A stretch of DNA of 55,368 nucleotides from a virus. A model generated the notes under the pieces. That model was not told the DNA's origin. It made no database searches and saw nothing but the letters and a program-made list of their open reading frames with translations. Shown here piece by piece: positions 3,509 to 16,509 of this stretch (position 1 is the stretch's first letter; each line of letters opens with the position of its first letter). The DNA lies in IMG/VR virus record IMGVR_UViG_3300049489_000171, positions 1-55,368 of that record, one strand, 5' to 3'. The position numbers and the translations under genes are program-made.

Positions 3509-3618
3509 CAAAGGTAGACGCGGCTAAATTTTCACAACCAGAAGGAGACGTGACTATGGATAACCAACACCAGAAGATCATCAGCATCATCCTGAAGCAC
3601 AAGGATGAACTGAAATGA
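3505..3618 (+). CDS. Very small protein, 37 aa
   Basis: The ATG at 3505 overlaps the upstream TGA, and the stop overlaps the ATG at 3615. An internal ATG at 3556 has a stronger ribosome site (AAGGAGACGTGACT), giving a 20-residue version (MDNQHQKIISIILKHKDELK). Both are possible. The end is a basic amphipathic helix. Function unknown. Confidence 0.5.
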   Translation: MTKVDAAKFSQPEGDVTMDNQHQKIISIILKHKDELK

Positions 3619-3812
3619 AAATCGAACGCCTAGCAGGAATCCCCGGGAAGCCGGAGGTTGCCCTAACAACCGGAGCAGTCTACCGCGTACTGCAAGGCGT
3701 GGAGCGCGGGTGGATAGCAGGCCCGCGTCGGTTTAGTGAGCGCGAGGCCATCAGCGCATGGAACACGATGGTACGCAGGATCAGGAAGCTGAATGCGGGA
3801 GGTGTGAAGTGA
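3615..3812 (+). CDS. Small protein, 65 aa, paralogue of the 2266 gene
   Basis: It shares with the 2266 product the pattern LxGxPGxPE near the start, VYxVxQG in the middle, R(x)xS(x)xEAxxxWNxMxxRI at the end, and similar length. This supports an old duplication within the operon. The GTG of the next gene overlaps its stop. Function unknown. Confidence 0.65.
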   Translation: MKIERLAGIPGKPEVALTTGAVYRVLQGVERGWIAGPRRFSEREAISAWNTMVRRIRKLNAGGVK

Positions 3813-3994
3813 CCACCCTACAATCCCTGCCAAACGACGTTGCCCGCTGCCGTGGACACAACTACGGGTATCCCTGCACCGACTGCCTGCGCCGGACAGC
3901 TCCGGTCAGCGGCGACAGGGCCGTGATGATGGAGCCACCGCCGCTTGTGCAGGATGGTAACTGTGAGGAGAGGATAGCCCCATGGCCGACCTAA
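3809..3994 (+). CDS. Small Cys protein, 61 aa
   Basis: GTG start at 3809 overlapping the stop upstream. It has one Cys early, then CTDCLRRTAP, a MMEPPPLVQDG stretch, and a final C-E-ERIAPW. Spaced Cys pairs around a basic DCLRRT motif recur in small phage proteins of unknown role; zinc binding is possible. It overlaps the next gene by 13 bp. Confidence 0.65.
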   Translation: MTTLQSLPNDVARCRGHNYGYPCTDCLRRTAPVSGDRAVMMEPPPLVQDGNCEERIAPWPT

Positions 3995-4206
3995 TCACCC
4001 GCGCCCGGGCGGTGGCGCTGAACGAGCGACTGGCCGAAGCCGTTCGCTACCTGCAAGACCAGATCGAAGCCCTGACCACACTCTGCAACGATCTGGAAGA
4101 GTTCGCGCAGCATGACGGCGGCTGTTACCTGCGGCACTCTGGCGACAAGTGCGACTGCGGCCTGCTGTCCACCATCAAGCGGCTCAACGAGAGGATGGGG
4201 TTGTGA
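3982..4206 (+). CDS. Small protein, 74 aa, coiled coil plus Cys/His
   Basis: Starts inside the end of the previous gene (13-bp overlap). Residues ~10-45 are heptad-like (LNERLAEAVRYLQDQIEAL). The second half contains CYLRHSGDKCDCGL, a possible metal site. The stop overlaps the GTG of the next gene. Function unknown. Confidence 0.65.
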   Translation: MADLITRARAVALNERLAEAVRYLQDQIEALTTLCNDLEEFAQHDGGCYLRHSGDKCDCGLLSTIKRLNERMGL

Positions 4207-10827: not shown

Positions 10828-11034
10828 ATGACCGAACCGCAACTGTACATCGTGCGATACCTGATTCCCTGCAAAGACGTGATCTTCGCCACCAGCCCTG
10901 CTGACGCGGTGAAGGGGATCAGTGCCGCGCGCAACATCCCTTACGGCTCAGTGATCCAAGGGGCGTACCCAGCCAGCGGCCCGCTTCCCGAGGCGTTTGG
11001 CGGGCCGCCCGAACCGCCCAAGGCGGCGGCATGA
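10828..11034 (+). CDS. Small protein, 68 aa
   Basis: ATG 10828 lies 4 bp after the previous stop. A core (LYIVRYLIPCKDVIFATSPA) is followed by a Pro-rich tail (GPPEPPKAAA). The stop overlaps the ATG of the PAPS-reductase-like gene. Function unknown. Confidence 0.6.
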   Translation: MTEPQLYIVRYLIPCKDVIFATSPADAVKGISAARNIPYGSVIQGAYPASGPLPEAFGGPPEPPKAAA

Positions 11035-11819
11035 TCACCGCCGAAGGCGCGGGCCGCGTGAGCGACGTTCTTCATGGAGACACCATCGCGGTCTGGTTCT
11101 CTTGCGGGGCTGCGTCTGCCGTTGCGGCTAAAAAGACCATCGAATACTACGGCGCACTGGCGACAATTCGAGTGGTCAACAACCCGGTCGCCGAGGAAGA
11201 CGAGGACAACCGGCGTTTCTTGAAAGATGTAGAGCGGTGGCTTGGCGTCACTGTAGAGACGGCGGTAAACAGCAAATACCCGATGGCGTCAGCGGTGGAG
11301 GTGTGGGGTGATCGGCGGTTCATGTCCGGGCCGACGGGCGCCCCCTGCACCATTGAATTGAAAAAGCGCGCCAGGCAGGAGTGGGAGGAGAGCAACCACG
11401 CGGACTGGCACGTCCTTGGATTCACGGCGGACGAGCGCGGCAGGTACGACCGCTTTCGGCTGACGGAGCGGGACAACGTCCTGCCCATACTGCTCGACGC
11501 TTTCATCTCCAAACAAGAATGCTTTCGCATCCTCAAGGCAGCAGGCATTGCGCTTCCCCGCGTCTACGCGCAGGGCTATCCGAACGCGAACTGTATCGGC
11601 TGTGTCAAGGCCACGAGCCCGACGTACTGGAACCACGTCAGACAGCAGCACCCCGACGTGTTCGCGCACCGCGCTGCGCAGTCACGCGACATTGGCGCCC
11701 GCTTGGTTCGGCACAAGGGCAAGCGCCTGTTCTTGGATGAGTTGCCGCCAGACGCCAAAGGGCGAAGCATGAAAAGCATGACTGTCGAGTGCGGTATCTT
11801 TTGCGAGGAAAGGTCATGA
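11031..11819 (+). CDS. PAPS-reductase-like PP-loop protein
   Basis: A 262-residue member of the phage PAPS reductase-like group. The PP-loop is SCGAAS (24-29) in VWFSCGAASAVAAK. RRFLKDVERWLG, GAPCTIELKKRARQEW and ANCIGCVKATSPTYWN supply the conserved Cys residues seen in phage members. The family activates substrates with ATP. In phages it may serve DNA or RNA modification rather than sulfate reduction, and its neighbour is a DNA methyltransferase. The actual substrate is unknown. Confidence 0.75.
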   Translation: MITAEGAGRVSDVLHGDTIAVWFSCGAASAVAAKKTIEYYGALATIRVVNNPVAEEDEDNRRFLKDVERWLGVTVETAVNSKYPMASAVEVWGDRRFMSGPTGAPCTIELKKRARQEWEESNHADWHVLGFTADERGRYDRFRLTERDNVLPILLDAFISKQECFRILKAAGIALPRVYAQGYPNANCIGCVKATSPTYWNHVRQQHPDVFAHRAAQSRDIGARLVRHKGKRLFLDELPPDAKGRSMKSMTVECGIFCEERS

Positions 11820-11998
11820 TCACCGCCCTTGGCGAGTTCGTCGAGATCCCAGCGGGCAACTGGTCGGCGTCGCTGTGTGTCGAGGACGGCGTGAACGCGA
11901 TCCTGCTGGTTGACGACGCGCAGGAACCTCTGCTGCTCAAAGCGTTGAACGGGCAGTTGTACATCAAGCTGCTGGAGCCGGCGGAGGGGGAGCAGTGA
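11816..11998 (+). CDS. Small protein, 60 aa
   Basis: ATG 11816 overlaps the stop of the previous gene, and its own stop overlaps the methyltransferase start. Beta-rich and acidic (ILLVDDAQEPLLLKALNG). Its position between two modification genes suggests an accessory role, but nothing in the sequence shows it. Confidence 0.6.
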   Translation: MITALGEFVEIPAGNWSASLCVEDGVNAILLVDDAQEPLLLKALNGQLYIKLLEPAEGEQ

Positions 11999-13632
11999 GC
12001 GCGTACTACAACGAACACGATCCTGGCGCAGCCGCGTGGCTGCGTGAACTGATAAAGCAGGGCCACATCGCAGACGGCGTGGTCGATGAACGGAGTATCG
12101 AAGATGTCCTCCCAAGCGAACTGGCTGGATTTACCCAGTGCCACTTCTTCGCCGGTATCGGTGGCTGGAGCTACGCCCTTCGACTGGCTGGATGGCCCGA
12201 CGACAAGCCAGTCTGGACAGGCTCCTGCCCCTGTCAACCTTTCAGCGTCGCAGGCAAAGGAAAAGGGACTGCTGACGAGCGACACCTCTGGCCTGCCTTC
12301 GCCTGGCTCATCCGCCAGTGTCGCCCTTCAGTCGTCTTTGGCGAACAGGTTGCGAGTCGTGCTGGCCGGGGTTGGCTCGCCGGAGTACGCACTGACCTGG
12401 AAGCAATGGGATATGCAGTCGGGGCCGCCGATCTGTGCGCTGCGGGCGTCGGCGCACCGCATATCCGGCAGCGATTGTTTTGGGTGGGGAACGCCGACCG
12501 TGCAGGACGGAAAGCATTCAACACTCAGCCCATCGGAACTGAAACGGGATCCAGCGAACTTGCGACTGCGGGCTCATTCGGCTGGCGGCGCGTATCCTTC
12601 GCAGCCGACTGTCTCGGAGGTGACCCCGGAGAACTCGGTGACGAATGCTCAATCTGTGGACTCGACTACAGCAACGACTGCGAATGTCCAGGGCCAACGC
12701 AAGATGACGAATACGAATACACAGAACTCGACGGAATCCTTCTCGCTCGCAGGTTGGGTCACGCCATCGACGAGGGACTGGAAGGATACGCCGGGCATGG
12801 CGACGACGGGCACGAACCCGGATGGCTCGACACGGACCAGGATCGACCAGTTGCCGAGGCAGGCGGCGATAGCTGGTCAAACAGCGTCTGGATTCCCTGC
12901 GCAGACGGGAAATCGCGGCGCATTGTCGCCCGTCTTGCCTTGCTTCCTGATGGGATACCCCATACAATGGCTTCACTGCGTTCCACGCAAGGAGAAGTGA
13001 ATGCCGAGGCCACCGTTACCCGTCCCGACGAAGCACTGCAAATCCTGCGGCATGAAGATGGAGCGGAAGCGGTACGGAGCCGCGCTGGAAGATCGCCCGA
13101 CCTTCATGCGTCGGACGTTTTGCAACCGTGCGTGCATGGCAGCGTGGATGGAGGGACAGATCAAGGTTCCAACCCCAAAGAACAGCCGTCGCCAGTCGGC
13201 CAAGGAGAAAGCAGCGGCGTGCGCGAAGTGCGGATCAATGAAGCGGCTCCAAGTGCACCACAAAGACGAGAACCCGCTAAACAACGACCGCTCGAATTTG
13301 GAGACGTTGTGCGCTACTTGCCACATGCGTACTCACTGGCAATCTTGGAAGGAGACGACGCGACGGCCCAGGGTCTGCTCCGTGTGTATGAAGCCTGCCC
13401 GTCACTTGGGTCTGTGCAACACGCACTACAGTCGGTTCCGTCGCTACGGCGATCCGCTTGTGGTCAAGAGGTTCAACGGGCATGGGACGCCGGTCTTTTT
13501 GAAGGCTTCGGAATCATGGCCTGCAACCCGCTCACCAAAGCGTTCCCGTCTCGATCCGTCGCCCTGAAGGGGCTTGGCAATGCCATCGTCCCGCAAGTCG
13601 CGGCGGCGTTCATCGAAGCCTGCGGACTCTGA
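11995..13632 (+). CDS. C5-cytosine DNA methyltransferase with nested insertion
   Basis: Motif I FAGIGGWSYAL, motif IV GSCPCQPFS with catalytic Cys, a motif VI variant FGEQV, HIRQRLFWVG, WIPCADGKSRRI and the final LKGLGNAIVPQVAAAFI define a phage C5 methyltransferase. It would methylate cytosine in a short target, probably for protection from host restriction. The ~183 residues between GIPHTM and ACNPL (12967-13516) have no methyltransferase features and coincide with an HNH gene in the +1 frame. Removing them restores a normal ~362-residue enzyme. Residues ~36-335 are also overlapped by a companion gene. Whether the 545-residue form is active is unknown. Confidence 0.85.
   Translation: MSAYYNEHDPGAAAWLRELIKQGHIADGVVDERSIEDVLPSELAGFTQCHFFAGIGGWSYALRLAGWPDDKPVWTGSCPCQPFSVAGKGKGTADERHLWPAFAWLIRQCRPSVVFGEQVASRAGRGWLAGVRTDLEAMGYAVGAADLCAAGVGAPHIRQRLFWVGNADRAGRKAFNTQPIGTETGSSELATAGSFGWRRVSFAADCLGGDPGELGDECSICGLDYSNDCECPGPTQDDEYEYTELDGILLARRLGHAIDEGLEGYAGHGDDGHEPGWLDTDQDRPVAEAGGDSWSNSVWIPCADGKSRRIVARLALLPDGIPHTMASLRSTQGEVNAEATVTRPDEALQILRHEDGAEAVRSRAGRSPDLHASDVLQPCVHGSVDGGTDQGSNPKEQPSPVGQGESSGVREVRINEAAPSAPQRREPAKQRPLEFGDVVRYLPHAYSLAILEGDDATAQGLLRVYEACPSLGSVQHALQSVPSLRRSACGQEVQRAWDAGLFEGFGIMACNPLTKAFPSRSVALKGLGNAIVPQVAAAFIEACGL
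12104..13000 (+). CDS. Methyltransferase companion protein, nested in +1 frame
   Basis: A 298-residue protein wholly inside the methyltransferase gene, in the +1 frame. It matches a phage protein type I recognise beside or overlapping C5 methyltransferases: SSLANRLRVVLAGVGSPEYA, LTWKQWDM, PPICALRASAHR, WVTPSTRDWKDTPGM, RIDQLPRQAA and FLMGYPIQW. ATG 12104 follows CGGAG with 8-base spacing and is preferred to 12086. Its role is unknown. The normal tail seems displaced: the frame stops after VPRKEK at 13000, and a tail-like sequence (PATRSPKRSR) now ends the HNH gene. Confidence 0.7.
   Translation: MSSQANWLDLPSATSSPVSVAGATPFDWLDGPTTSQSGQAPAPVNLSASQAKEKGLLTSDTSGLPSPGSSASVALQSSLANRLRVVLAGVGSPEYALTWKQWDMQSGPPICALRASAHRISGSDCFGWGTPTVQDGKHSTLSPSELKRDPANLRLRAHSAGGAYPSQPTVSEVTPENSVTNAQSVDSTTATTANVQGQRKMTNTNTQNSTESFSLAGWVTPSTRDWKDTPGMATTGTNPDGSTRTRIDQLPRQAAIAGQTASGFPAQTGNRGALSPVLPCFLMGYPIQWLHCVPRKEK
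12967..13520 (+). mobile_element. Inferred HNH-carrying insertion in the methyltransferase/companion pair
   Basis: ATGGC occurs at 12967-12971 and 13516-13520. The 549-bp interval is 183 codons, so both host frames keep register. Joining the ATGGC copies gives ...DGIPHTM-ACNPLTKAF... for the methyltransferase and ...MGYPIQW-PATRSPKR... for the companion. The insert holds little more than a ribosome site and the HNH gene, so a group I intron core is unlikely. Boundaries are inferred without an uninterrupted relative. Confidence 0.55.
13001..13567 (+). CDS. HNH homing-type endonuclease, nested in +1 frame
   Basis: A 188-residue protein with its own ribosome site (AAGGAGAAGTGA before ATG 13001), starting at once after the companion stop. 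N-terminal Cys pairs (C13/C16, C41/C45, C74/C77) suggest zinc binding. The HNH core is LQVHHKDENPLNNDRSNLET with CATCHMRTHW (H86, H87, N99, H108). LGLCNTHYSRFRRYGDP is common at the end of such phage endonucleases. The last ~16 residues look like the former tail of the companion protein. Such enzymes spread by cutting alleles that lack them. Confidence 0.8.
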   Translation: MPRPPLPVPTKHCKSCGMKMERKRYGAALEDRPTFMRRTFCNRACMAAWMEGQIKVPTPKNSRRQSAKEKAAACAKCGSMKRLQVHHKDENPLNNDRSNLETLCATCHMRTHWQSWKETTRRPRVCSVCMKPARHLGLCNTHYSRFRRYGDPLVVKRFNGHGTPVFLKASESWPATRSPKRSRLDPSP

Positions 13633-13647
13633 GGACTGGCTGGCGAT

Positions 13648-16509
13648 ATGAAGGTCCACATCGACATCGAGACCTACAGCGAAGCGGACCTCAAGAAAGA
13701 AGGACTCTACCGCCACGCCAACGACTACAGCACCGAACTGCTGGTCGTCTGCTACGCCATCGACGACGGGCCTGTGATGACTTGGTGGCCGGTTCCAGAC
13801 GTGCCCGCCGCGCTGAGGGTGCCCCCCGCGCACGTTGGCGAGCAGGCGCCGGCAGACCTTCTCGCCGCTCTCGAAGCCGGCGCCACGGTCTACGCACACA
13901 ACGCGAGTTTCGAGAGAGCCGTTCTCTCTGGTCACGTCGGACGGCGTCACGGCTTCCCGGTCCTGCGGCCAAGCCGCATGGTCTGCACCGCAGCCAAAGC
14001 GGCGGCACACGGCCTGCCGCGCTCCCTGGAGGACGCCTGCAAGGCTATTGGCACCCGACCCAAGATGGCCAGCGGCAGAGCCAACATGCTTCAGTTGGCC
14101 AAGCCGCGTACTGGCAAGCAGCACCGCTACGAGATGGCGGACTACCCGGAGAAGTACGCGGACCTGGCCGCGTATTGCGTGGACGACGTGCGGGCCGAAC
14201 GTGACCTCGACCGCCGGCTCCCTGACCTCACCCCGAGAGAGCAGGCGGTCTGGGAGCTCGACCAGTTGATCAACGACCGCGGCGTGCGGCTGGACCGCAA
14301 AGCCATTGCCGACGTGCAGTTTCTGATCGCCGAGTACAAGGCTGAACTGAAGAAACTGTGCATCGAGTGGACGGGCTGCAACCCGACCCAGACCGCCGAG
14401 ATCGCCAATTGGGTGCGCAAGCACGGCTACCCGCAGTTGGTCGATCTGCAGAAAGCCTCGGTCGACGTGGCACTGCAGGACGAGGCGTGTCCTGAGAACG
14501 TGCGCCAGGTGCTGCGCCTTCGGTCGACCTATGCGATGGCCGCGGTCGCCAAGTACACGGCGATGGAGACCTCGGTTGGCGATGACGACCGCCTGCGCGG
14601 GATGCTCTTGTACCACGGAGCGGCAACCGGCCGCTGGGCCTCGCTGCTCGTGCAGCTTCAAAACATGTTCCGCCCGGTGATCAAGGACGTGCCGACCGCG
14701 ATCGAGGCGTTCGCCTTGCGTGACCTGCAGTGGGTCAAAGATCTGTACCCGGCCGACCCTATGAAGGTCTTCGCCTCGGCGGTCAGGGGCATGATCATCC
14801 CCGCTGAGGGGAAAGACCTGATGGCGTTGGACTTCAGCGCCATTGAGGCCCGGGTGCTGGCATGGCTCGCGGGTCAACGCGACATCCTCGCCGTGTTCGC
14901 CACCCACGGCAAGGTCTACGAGTACACCGCGGGGCAGATTTACCGGGTGCCGCTGGAGAAGGTCACCGAGGCCCAGCGGTTCATCGGCAAGGTCGCCGTG
15001 CTGGCACTGGGCTACCAGGGTGGTCAGGCAGCGTTCGCCAAGATGGCCAAGAACTTCGGCGTTGACATCCCCGAGGAGCGGGCCAACGAGATCAAGAACG
15101 ACTGGCGCAAGGCCAACAACTTCATCGTCCAGTTCTGGTACGACATCGAGACCGCGGCCAAAGCAGCGGTCGGTAACCCTGGGCAGGCGTTCGGTGTGCC
15201 GTCCAAGCGGATCGTCTTCTGTGTGAAAGACCGTTGGTTGGTGATGCGCCTGCCGTCGGGCCGCAAGCTGTACTACCTCGACCCGGAGATCGACGAGAAC
15301 GGCCAAGTCACATACATGGGCGTGGACACGTACACGCGCCGCTGGTGCAGGGTCGGAACGTATGGCGGGAAGCTCTGCCTTGCGGGGGACACGGAAGTGC
15401 TCACTGATAAAGGGTGGCTGCCGATTAGCCAGTACCGTGAGGGGGCCAGACTGTGGGACGGAGCGGCTTGGGTTTACGGTGGTAAGCTACTTGATCAAGG
15501 GGTCAAGCCTGTAATACGCTACGCGGGCGTTTGGATGACTTCTGATCACGAGGTACTGTCGAATGAAGGCTGGAAAACCGCCGAAGCTATGGCATCGGGC
15601 CAAGGACTTGAGCGGGCGCAAGTTCGCCTACCTGACTGTTCTCCGGTACTCTCACAGCGAGCGTGGCAAGACGTTCTGGGTTCTGCGGTGCGAGTGCGGG
15701 AAAGAGACGGTGGCCGAGGGGGCCGGATTGACTCGAGCCCGCGGCCCTTCACCGAAGTCATGTGGGTGCAAGACCGGCGCGTTGATTGCCGCGGGCAACA
15801 CGCAACACGGCCTGTCCAAGCACCCGGCGTACTGGGTGTATCGAAGCATGATCGACCGCTGTCGGCTGCCGTCTCATCAGGCATGGCACAACTATGGCGG
15901 CAGGGGTATACGGGTTTGCGCACGCTGGCGGAAAGGCTTTGCGTTCTTCTGGGCAGACATGGAGCGCGGATATCAGCCAGGGCTGTGCTTGGAGCGGGTG
16001 AACAACGCGAAGGGGTATTCGCCCGAGAACTGTCGGTGGGCTACGTACAGGGAGCAGGCCAACAATACGCGCATGAACCGAAAGATAAATACCCTTTGGG
16101 GGCTGATGACGGTCACTCAAGCCGGCAGAAAGGCCGGGCTTCTGAATACAACGATCCTCGAAAGGATCAAAAGAGGTTGGCCGGAGAGCAGACTGCTCGA
16201 ACCTACGACATAGCCAACGTCGGGCCGCGCAATCGCTTCACGGTTCGTGGCGACGCCGGAGAGGTGTTTATCGTCCACAACTGCGAAAACAGTGTGCAAG
16301 CTATTGCGCGCGACCTGCTGGTCAACGGTATGTTCGAGTTGGAGGCGGCCGGCTACCCCCTGGTCCTGACCGTGCATGACGAGGTGGTCATGGAAGTGGA
16401 CTCTGGCGATCTGGACGAGGCGGCGGCGCTGATGTGCCGGTTGCCAGAATGGGCGAAGGGGCTGCCAGTTAAGGCTGAAGGTTGGGTTGGGGTTCGTTAC
16501 AGGAAGTAA
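13648..16509 (+). CDS. polA-like: DNA polymerase A family, interrupted by an intein
   Basis: A 953-residue precursor; 651 residues without the intein, typical for phage family A polymerases. 3'-5' exonuclease motifs: IDIET (Asp6, Glu8), AHNASFERA and YCVDDVRAE. Polymerase motif A is LDFSAIEARVL (Asp395), motif B is RFIGKVAVLALGYQGG, and motif C is VHDEVV (Asp911 of the precursor). The intein interrupts GGKL/CENSVQAIARDL, a conserved active-site region, so the enzyme should need splicing. It replicates phage DNA with the primase-helicase. ATG 13648 directly opens the exonuclease domain. Confidence 0.92.
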   Translation: MKVHIDIETYSEADLKKEGLYRHANDYSTELLVVCYAIDDGPVMTWWPVPDVPAALRVPPAHVGEQAPADLLAALEAGATVYAHNASFERAVLSGHVGRRHGFPVLRPSRMVCTAAKAAAHGLPRSLEDACKAIGTRPKMASGRANMLQLAKPRTGKQHRYEMADYPEKYADLAAYCVDDVRAERDLDRRLPDLTPREQAVWELDQLINDRGVRLDRKAIADVQFLIAEYKAELKKLCIEWTGCNPTQTAEIANWVRKHGYPQLVDLQKASVDVALQDEACPENVRQVLRLRSTYAMAAVAKYTAMETSVGDDDRLRGMLLYHGAATGRWASLLVQLQNMFRPVIKDVPTAIEAFALRDLQWVKDLYPADPMKVFASAVRGMIIPAEGKDLMALDFSAIEARVLAWLAGQRDILAVFATHGKVYEYTAGQIYRVPLEKVTEAQRFIGKVAVLALGYQGGQAAFAKMAKNFGVDIPEERANEIKNDWRKANNFIVQFWYDIETAAKAAVGNPGQAFGVPSKRIVFCVKDRWLVMRLPSGRKLYYLDPEIDENGQVTYMGVDTYTRRWCRVGTYGGKLCLAGDTEVLTDKGWLPISQYREGARLWDGAAWVYGGKLLDQGVKPVIRYAGVWMTSDHEVLSNEGWKTAEAMASGQGLERAQVRLPDCSPVLSQRAWQDVLGSAVRVRERDGGRGGRIDSSPRPFTEVMWVQDRRVDCRGQHATRPVQAPGVLGVSKHDRPLSAAVSSGMAQLWRQGYTGLRTLAERLCVLLGRHGARISARAVLGAGEQREGVFARELSVGYVQGAGQQYAHEPKDKYPLGADDGHSSRQKGRASEYNDPRKDQKRLAGEQTARTYDIANVGPRNRFTVRGDAGEVFIVHNCENSVQAIARDLLVNGMFELEAAGYPLVLTVHDEVVMEVDSGDLDEAAALMCRLPEWAKGLPVKAEGWVGVRYRK
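15376..16281 (+). mobile_element. Intein in DNA polymerase (302 aa)
   Basis: Residues 577-878 of the precursor. Block A starts with Cys577 (CLAGDTEVLTDKGWLPI), block B contains TSDHE (His634), block F reads TYDIANVGPRNRFTVRG, and block G ends VFIVHN before Cys879. These are the nucleophile, His and Asn-plus-Cys needed for class 1 splicing. The middle (~170-200 residues) shows no in-frame endonuclease motif I recognise. Instead an endonuclease gene lies there in the +1 frame. Confidence 0.9.
15563..16213 (+). CDS. Homing endonuclease nested in the intein, +1 frame
   Basis: A 216-residue HNH/AP2-type phage endonuclease. A CECGKE...SCGC zinc-like region is followed by WVYRSMIDRCR, NYGGRGIRVC, LERVNNAKGYSPENCRWAT and REQANNTRMN, the core of the family. 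A NUMOD-like end (TVTQAGRKAGLLNTTILERI) suits DNA recognition. ATG 15563 has GAGG 9 bases upstream. The gene begins just after intein block B and stops within block F, exactly where an in-frame endonuclease domain normally sits. It likely drives spread of the intein as a separate protein. Confidence 0.85.
   Translation: MKAGKPPKLWHRAKDLSGRKFAYLTVLRYSHSERGKTFWVLRCECGKETVAEGAGLTRARGPSPKSCGCKTGALIAAGNTQHGLSKHPAYWVYRSMIDRCRLPSHQAWHNYGGRGIRVCARWRKGFAFFWADMERGYQPGLCLERVNNAKGYSPENCRWATYREQANNTRMNRKINTLWGLMTVTQAGRKAGLLNTTILERIKRGWPESRLLEPTT

Follow-up and report, generated by a model that had tools for sequence, protein, structure and literature searches.

In the viral DNA analysed here (IMG/VR record IMGVR_UViG_3300049489_000171; the whole stretch of 55,368 nucleotides is called the window), the ORF of a C5-cytosine DNA methyltransferase (alpha) wholly encloses a companion gene (beta) read in its +1 frame. 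Both frames are coding, motif IX of the enzyme is found in beta and not in alpha, and there are relatives in which the two parts are fused into a single chain. Judging from sequence comparisons, beta is, with a probability of roughly 0.88, the small subunit of a C5 methyltransferase that, like M.EcoHK31I, is built of two polypeptides.

Two coding frames in one methyltransferase ORF

The alpha ORF (11995–13632, + strand; 545 aa, GTG start) harbors motifs I, IV, VI (GEQV), VIII and X but no motif IX. It matches PF00145 (E 2.8e-15, passing the cut-off), phrog_363 (E 1e-77) and M.HhaI (E 5e-9); alignment with the latter places motif IV, the PCQ with the catalytic cysteine, at 12229–12237. Motif X (LGNAIVPQVAAAFIEACGL, 13573–13629, with GNAIVPQ at about 13573–13600) is located behind an HNH insert (see below). 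The homologs retain PCQ in 236 and EQV or ENV in 230 of the 239 scorable loci, which identifies the family as C5-cytosine DNA methyltransferases.

The beta ORF (12086–13000, + strand) codes for 304 aa if read from ATG 12086 and for 298 aa from ATG 12104. The latter start is preceded, 8 nt upstream, by a Shine–Dalgarno-like GGAG (12092–12095, + strand) embedded in the alpha codons for DERSIED. The arginine at this site is encoded by AGG or CGG in 133 of 199 homologs, the share of AGG being 39% vs. 8% elsewhere in these methyltransferase genes. The beta protein matches PHROG 1008, labelled DNA methyltransferase (E 4e-15, residues 19–149), and also phrog_31772; tblastn at 1e-5 matches it to 106 phage records, none of them reaching 60% identity, while Pfam, NCBIfam and PDB sequences yielded no match. 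Its hallmarks are two W-x-T-P modules evident from the alignments (WGTPTVQD, 12485–12508, and WVTPSTRD, 12755–12778, both + strand) and a terminal motif-IX equivalent (LSPVLPCFLMGYPIQW, 12923–12970, + strand). The first-pass annotation had described a recognisable phage protein of about 300 residues opened by an ATG with CGGAG; the profile and tblastn matches, the size and the start agree with this description, and the strings it listed are all present (LTWKQWDM, STRDWKDTPGM, QLPRQAA, MGYPIQW and, for its “RLRASAHR-like”, ALRASAHR).

The length of the ORF is too weak as evidence for beta: among 5000 synonymous shuffles of the alpha codons up to the end of beta, 81 (1.6%) kept a +1 frame equally long. 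Hence, the reality of the gene was decided by conservation, i.e., by the PHROG 1008 match, the tblastn relatives and the purifying selection acting on the +1 frame. For the latter, codon-position shares were obtained from 56 independent pairs of related loci. Ahead of the overlap, 13/14/73% of the changes fell on alpha codon positions 1/2/3; the shares were 29/14/56% in the 5′ part of the overlap, 45/24/32% in the 3′ part and 26/23/51% past its end. Thus, in the 3′ half of the overlap, substitutions are led by alpha position 1, which is position 3 of beta.

Overlap-aware dN/dS estimates (45 pairs, bootstrap intervals; codon alignments built on alpha, gap-free blocks only) were obtained by region. 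Constraint on beta is not detectable in its codons 1–45 (omega 1.13 [0.83–1.66]); the values are 0.60 [0.47–0.73] for codons 46–90, 0.27 [0.19–0.37] for codons 91–135, 0.13 [0.09–0.18] in the W-x-T-P region and 0.41 [0.32–0.50] around motif IX. The corresponding alpha values are 0.10, 0.29, 0.29, 1.18 [0.91–1.61] and 0.42. According to these regional values, alpha rules the 5′ end of the overlap; the middle of its 5′ half is under constraint in both frames, and the W-x-T-P region in that of beta only, alpha resembling a neutral linker there. The pair represents a clean case of mutual overprinting, in which the 5′ part is governed by the methyltransferase frame and the middle by that of the partner.

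A non-functional shadow held open by the composition of alpha would agree with the open frames arising in shuffles of the window gene and with the unconstrained first 45 codons of beta. Beyond codon 45, however, the omega of beta (0.13 to 0.60) is well below that given by the same statistic in non-overlapping controls (1.68 and 1.04), and the conserved motifs of beta span phages of Proteobacteria, Firmicutes and Actinobacteria. The codon-position and dN/dS tests refute this reading, whose probability is negligible; the overlap is confirmed as real and functional.

The association of the two genes was followed in best-scoring relatives: 80 viral and 80 bacterial loci gathered via beta and 79 more viral loci gathered via alpha, making up, together with phage records and the window, 246 loci. 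The genes overlap at all 246, including 79/79 of those fetched with alpha only, and beta occupies the +1 frame at 244; the two remaining loci (L121 and L199) have their frames swapped by an indel. Long same-strand overlap of two conserved proteins, initially considered rare, is therefore present within this family at every locus examined. Both checks proposed in the first-pass annotation, co-occurrence and codon-position substitution, gave a positive outcome. Judged by its annotation, the phage Cr-LKS3 (L004) seemed to possess a non-overlapping companion; there as well, however, the companion is overlapped by a methyltransferase frame that had not been annotated. The indels at L121 and L199 (around 3600–4200), as well as at a further locus, L301, move motif IX of beta into the methyltransferase frame; they can reflect a mutation or a mistake in assembly, or belong to a chimeric enzyme. 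Within one bacterial class, a sample of 185 genomes contained, besides the seed, two weak matches only, so the pair seems to be sporadic in bacterial genomes.

Members of the beta family nested in the same way have already been annotated as internal genes without a mechanism, e.g., gp51 of Paenibacillus phage Rani (“g50 Internal gene”) and ORF30 of Escherichia phage K1G (“Mte8-like”). No report of a phage nested methyltransferase subunit, or of an out-of-frame HNH gene in a methyltransferase, was found in the openly accessible literature.

Distribution of the motifs between the polypeptides

Canonical motif IX was found in none of the 239 alphas. The IX-like string LNPxxxxWLMGxP is present in alpha at 2 and in beta at 210 of these loci; motif X resides in alpha at 208. 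In the window, hhalign superimposes LSPVLPCFLMGYPIQW of beta on RLSARFVEWMMGLPDG, which directly precedes motif X of single-chain enzymes. Hence, the large polypeptide carries motifs I–VIII and X without IX, motif IX belongs to the small polypeptide, and the gene of the latter lies inside that of the former (in the +1 frame at 244/246 loci), as is characteristic of the M.EcoHK31I type.

The beta gene of M.EcoHK31I is reportedly located inside its alpha gene in another frame. In this enzyme (specificity YGGCCR), the large subunit comprises motifs I–VIII and X, motif IX occurs only in the small subunit, and the predicted target-recognition domain was assigned to alpha (PMC3404938). The window pair displays the same split, a likeness in reported motif composition. 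It differs from M.EcoHK31I in the lack of a recognised adjoining restriction enzyme gene, in a longer beta (298 aa) whose W-x-T-P modules evolve under strong selection, in a third gene nested in alpha, and in the neutral evolution of the alpha stretch corresponding to the predicted recognition domain. Another split C5 methyltransferase, M.AquI (CYCGRG), has motifs I–VIII in alpha and IX–X in beta (PMC3404938). There too, two polypeptides form one C5 enzyme, but the window differs in that alpha retains motif X and encloses beta completely.

The arrangement of M.AquI is resembled by that of certain actinophages. In mycobacteriophage Eagle (gp78/gp77) and Streptomyces phage Heather (35/36), the catalytic ORF ends after motif VIII, and the next ORF, in the +1 frame and with a short overlap, holds LPTP modules, an IX-like string (LNAAFSEWMMGW and LSPEFAEWLMGL, respectively) and motif X. 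FoulBall features a similar split with an overlap of 209 nt. The actinophage loci L262, L264 and L330 possess split methyltransferases with both motif IX and motif X in the +1 ORF, whose overlap with the catalytic one ranges from a few tens of nucleotides to about 200 nt; they grade from the split into the nested arrangement.

Single-chain relatives comprise gp78 of Trax and gp88 of CheeseTouch (Gordonia phages), gp45 of Propionibacterium phage PFR1 and gp92 of Mycobacterium phage KyMonks1A. As in the window, a phrog_363 part (the alpha family) is followed by a phrog_1008 part (E 3e-29 to 6e-43) but, unlike in the window, within one ORF without overlap. In hhalign comparisons, the window family is linked to the split and nested families at 99.9% and these to the single chains at 99.8%; the direct alignment of the window family with the single chains covers 19 columns and lies precisely on motif IX (probability 66%, E 6e-5). 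It is the split and single-chain relatives that reveal the identity of the LNPxxxxWLMGxP string as the motif-IX equivalent. PFR1 gp45 also has its motifs VIII and IX separated by an LPTPTARD module, which occupies the place of the target-recognition region; beta probably holds target recognition and may set the sequence specificity.

Since the two parts of the Eagle and Heather enzymes lie in successive ORFs that overlap briefly, the second in +1, the +1 protein could be thought to be joined to the catalytic part of alpha by programmed frameshifting, giving one chain with motifs I–VIII, W-x-T-P modules and motif IX; the frame-swapped loci L121 and L199 would yield such a chain directly. This is improbable: beta has its own ATG at 203 of the 239 loci, most commonly 109 nt after the alpha start, a Shine–Dalgarno-like sequence precedes this ATG in most examples read, and motif X is kept in the frame of alpha. 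Nested genes elsewhere can encode regulators, and nothing in the single-chain enzymes corresponds to the N-terminal half of beta; both points would suit an independent regulator or anti-restriction protein sharing its DNA with alpha for compactness. This possibility appears even more remote, since single-chain methyltransferases join the C-terminal family of beta to the catalytic domain and alpha lacks a motif IX of its own. The earlier suggestion of a separate anti-restriction factor is, accordingly, unsupported; the suggestion that the companion modulates methylation pointed in the right direction, but beta looks like an integral subunit bearing motif IX and, probably, target recognition, not like a modulator.

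A third nested gene encoding an HNH endonuclease

The overlap extends beyond 13000, a circumstance missed in the first-pass annotation. Right behind the stop of beta and in the same frame (+1 relative to alpha), an ORF of 188 aa begins (13001–13567, + strand), preceded by a Shine–Dalgarno-like AGGAG (12990–12994, + strand) and situated between the motif-IX DNA and motif X. It encodes an HNH endonuclease, as follows from its match to phrog_1271 (E 2.9e-16) and from the residues invariant in the family alignment (H86, H87, N95, N99, C104, C107 and H108); the Pfam HNH match is just under its cut-off. The alpha frame, having passed through beta, stays open across the HNH gene up to motif X, as do 7 of 3000 shuffles. 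A group I intron or an intein carrying the nuclease was considered and rejected: no Rfam intron was found around the gene at E 5, nor any other useful Rfam match, and the HNH gene is in the +1 frame of its host.

The same arrangement, with alpha open to motif X, is found at L164, L174 and in Komagataeibacter phage phiKX1, and at L339 the HNH gene lies in +1 inside beta, between motifs IX and X. In Staphylococcus phage CUB-EPI_14, it resides within a single-chain HhaI-like methyltransferase whose frame has no stops vs. 11 expected at 35% GC. An HNH-similarity scan combined with six known cases provided 85 loci; at 72 of them (the window, L006, L164, L174, L339, L345 and most of L346–L424) the gene is nested with the host frame open, nearly always in ORFs with C5 motifs. 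In the majority of HNH relatives further removed, stops occur in that frame. Among 30 clusters of the subfamily at 60% identity, 29 lack a host-frame stop vs. 0.94 expected. Purifying selection acts on the HNH frame (0.27–0.39), and the host frame across it is weakly constrained or not at all (0.7–1.0; 10–20 pairs, no intervals).

The gene is inserted either between motifs IX and X or immediately ahead of IX, and canonical enzymes (L363 and L370) show this as well. HNH-less relatives align to both flanks of the gene, often with short flank overlaps; these candidate empty sites suggest that the HNH gene is an inserted, apparently mobile, element, and homing activity may be supposed. On balance, we favor the view that the family consists of mobile out-of-frame “pass-through” homing genes in C5-methyltransferase ORFs, the host frame being kept free of stops. 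The insertion in the IX–X region is proposed to lengthen the host protein by 100–190 residues without breaking it, so neither an intron nor an intein would be needed.

HNH endonuclease genes are known to insert in phage enzyme genes, e.g., mobE in the split nrdA of phage Aeh1, likewise at a conserved site. In contrast to the Aeh1 nrdA, the host frame in the window is unsplit and open through a nuclease gene in another frame. The nested HNH genes suggest how a nuclease gene might invade a coding sequence without splitting it.

The putative enzyme and its surroundings

In the proposed model, alpha would supply the AdoMet-binding and catalytic motifs I–VIII together with motif X. Beta, translated from its own internal ribosome-binding site, would contribute the motif-IX equivalent and the W-x-T-P modules, placed where single-chain relatives have their target-recognition region. 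The two polypeptides are expected to associate into one active enzyme, which would methylate the DNA of the phage itself and might protect it from host restriction. If so, target recognition would be the task of a protein overlooked in many annotations. Probably, many phage genes listed as a single DNA methyltransferase give rise to two proteins, and cloning only the annotated ORF without the internal start would then likely result in a dead enzyme or in a wrong specificity.

Next to the window pair, no restriction enzyme gene was recognised, making self-modification of the phage DNA its likely purpose. In a plasmid search with the epsilon15 methyltransferase (18 records), the three regions examined had no neighbor annotated as a restriction enzyme. 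The pair is flanked by a PAPS-reductase-like phage gene just upstream of alpha (11031–11819; phrog_424, E 3e-45) and by a DNA polymerase ORF (13648–16509). The latter seemingly harbors an intein at approximately 15376–16281: the polymerase matches break off at residue 576 and restart at 879, and the probable intein starts with CLAGDTEVLTDKGW and ends with VFIVHN/C.
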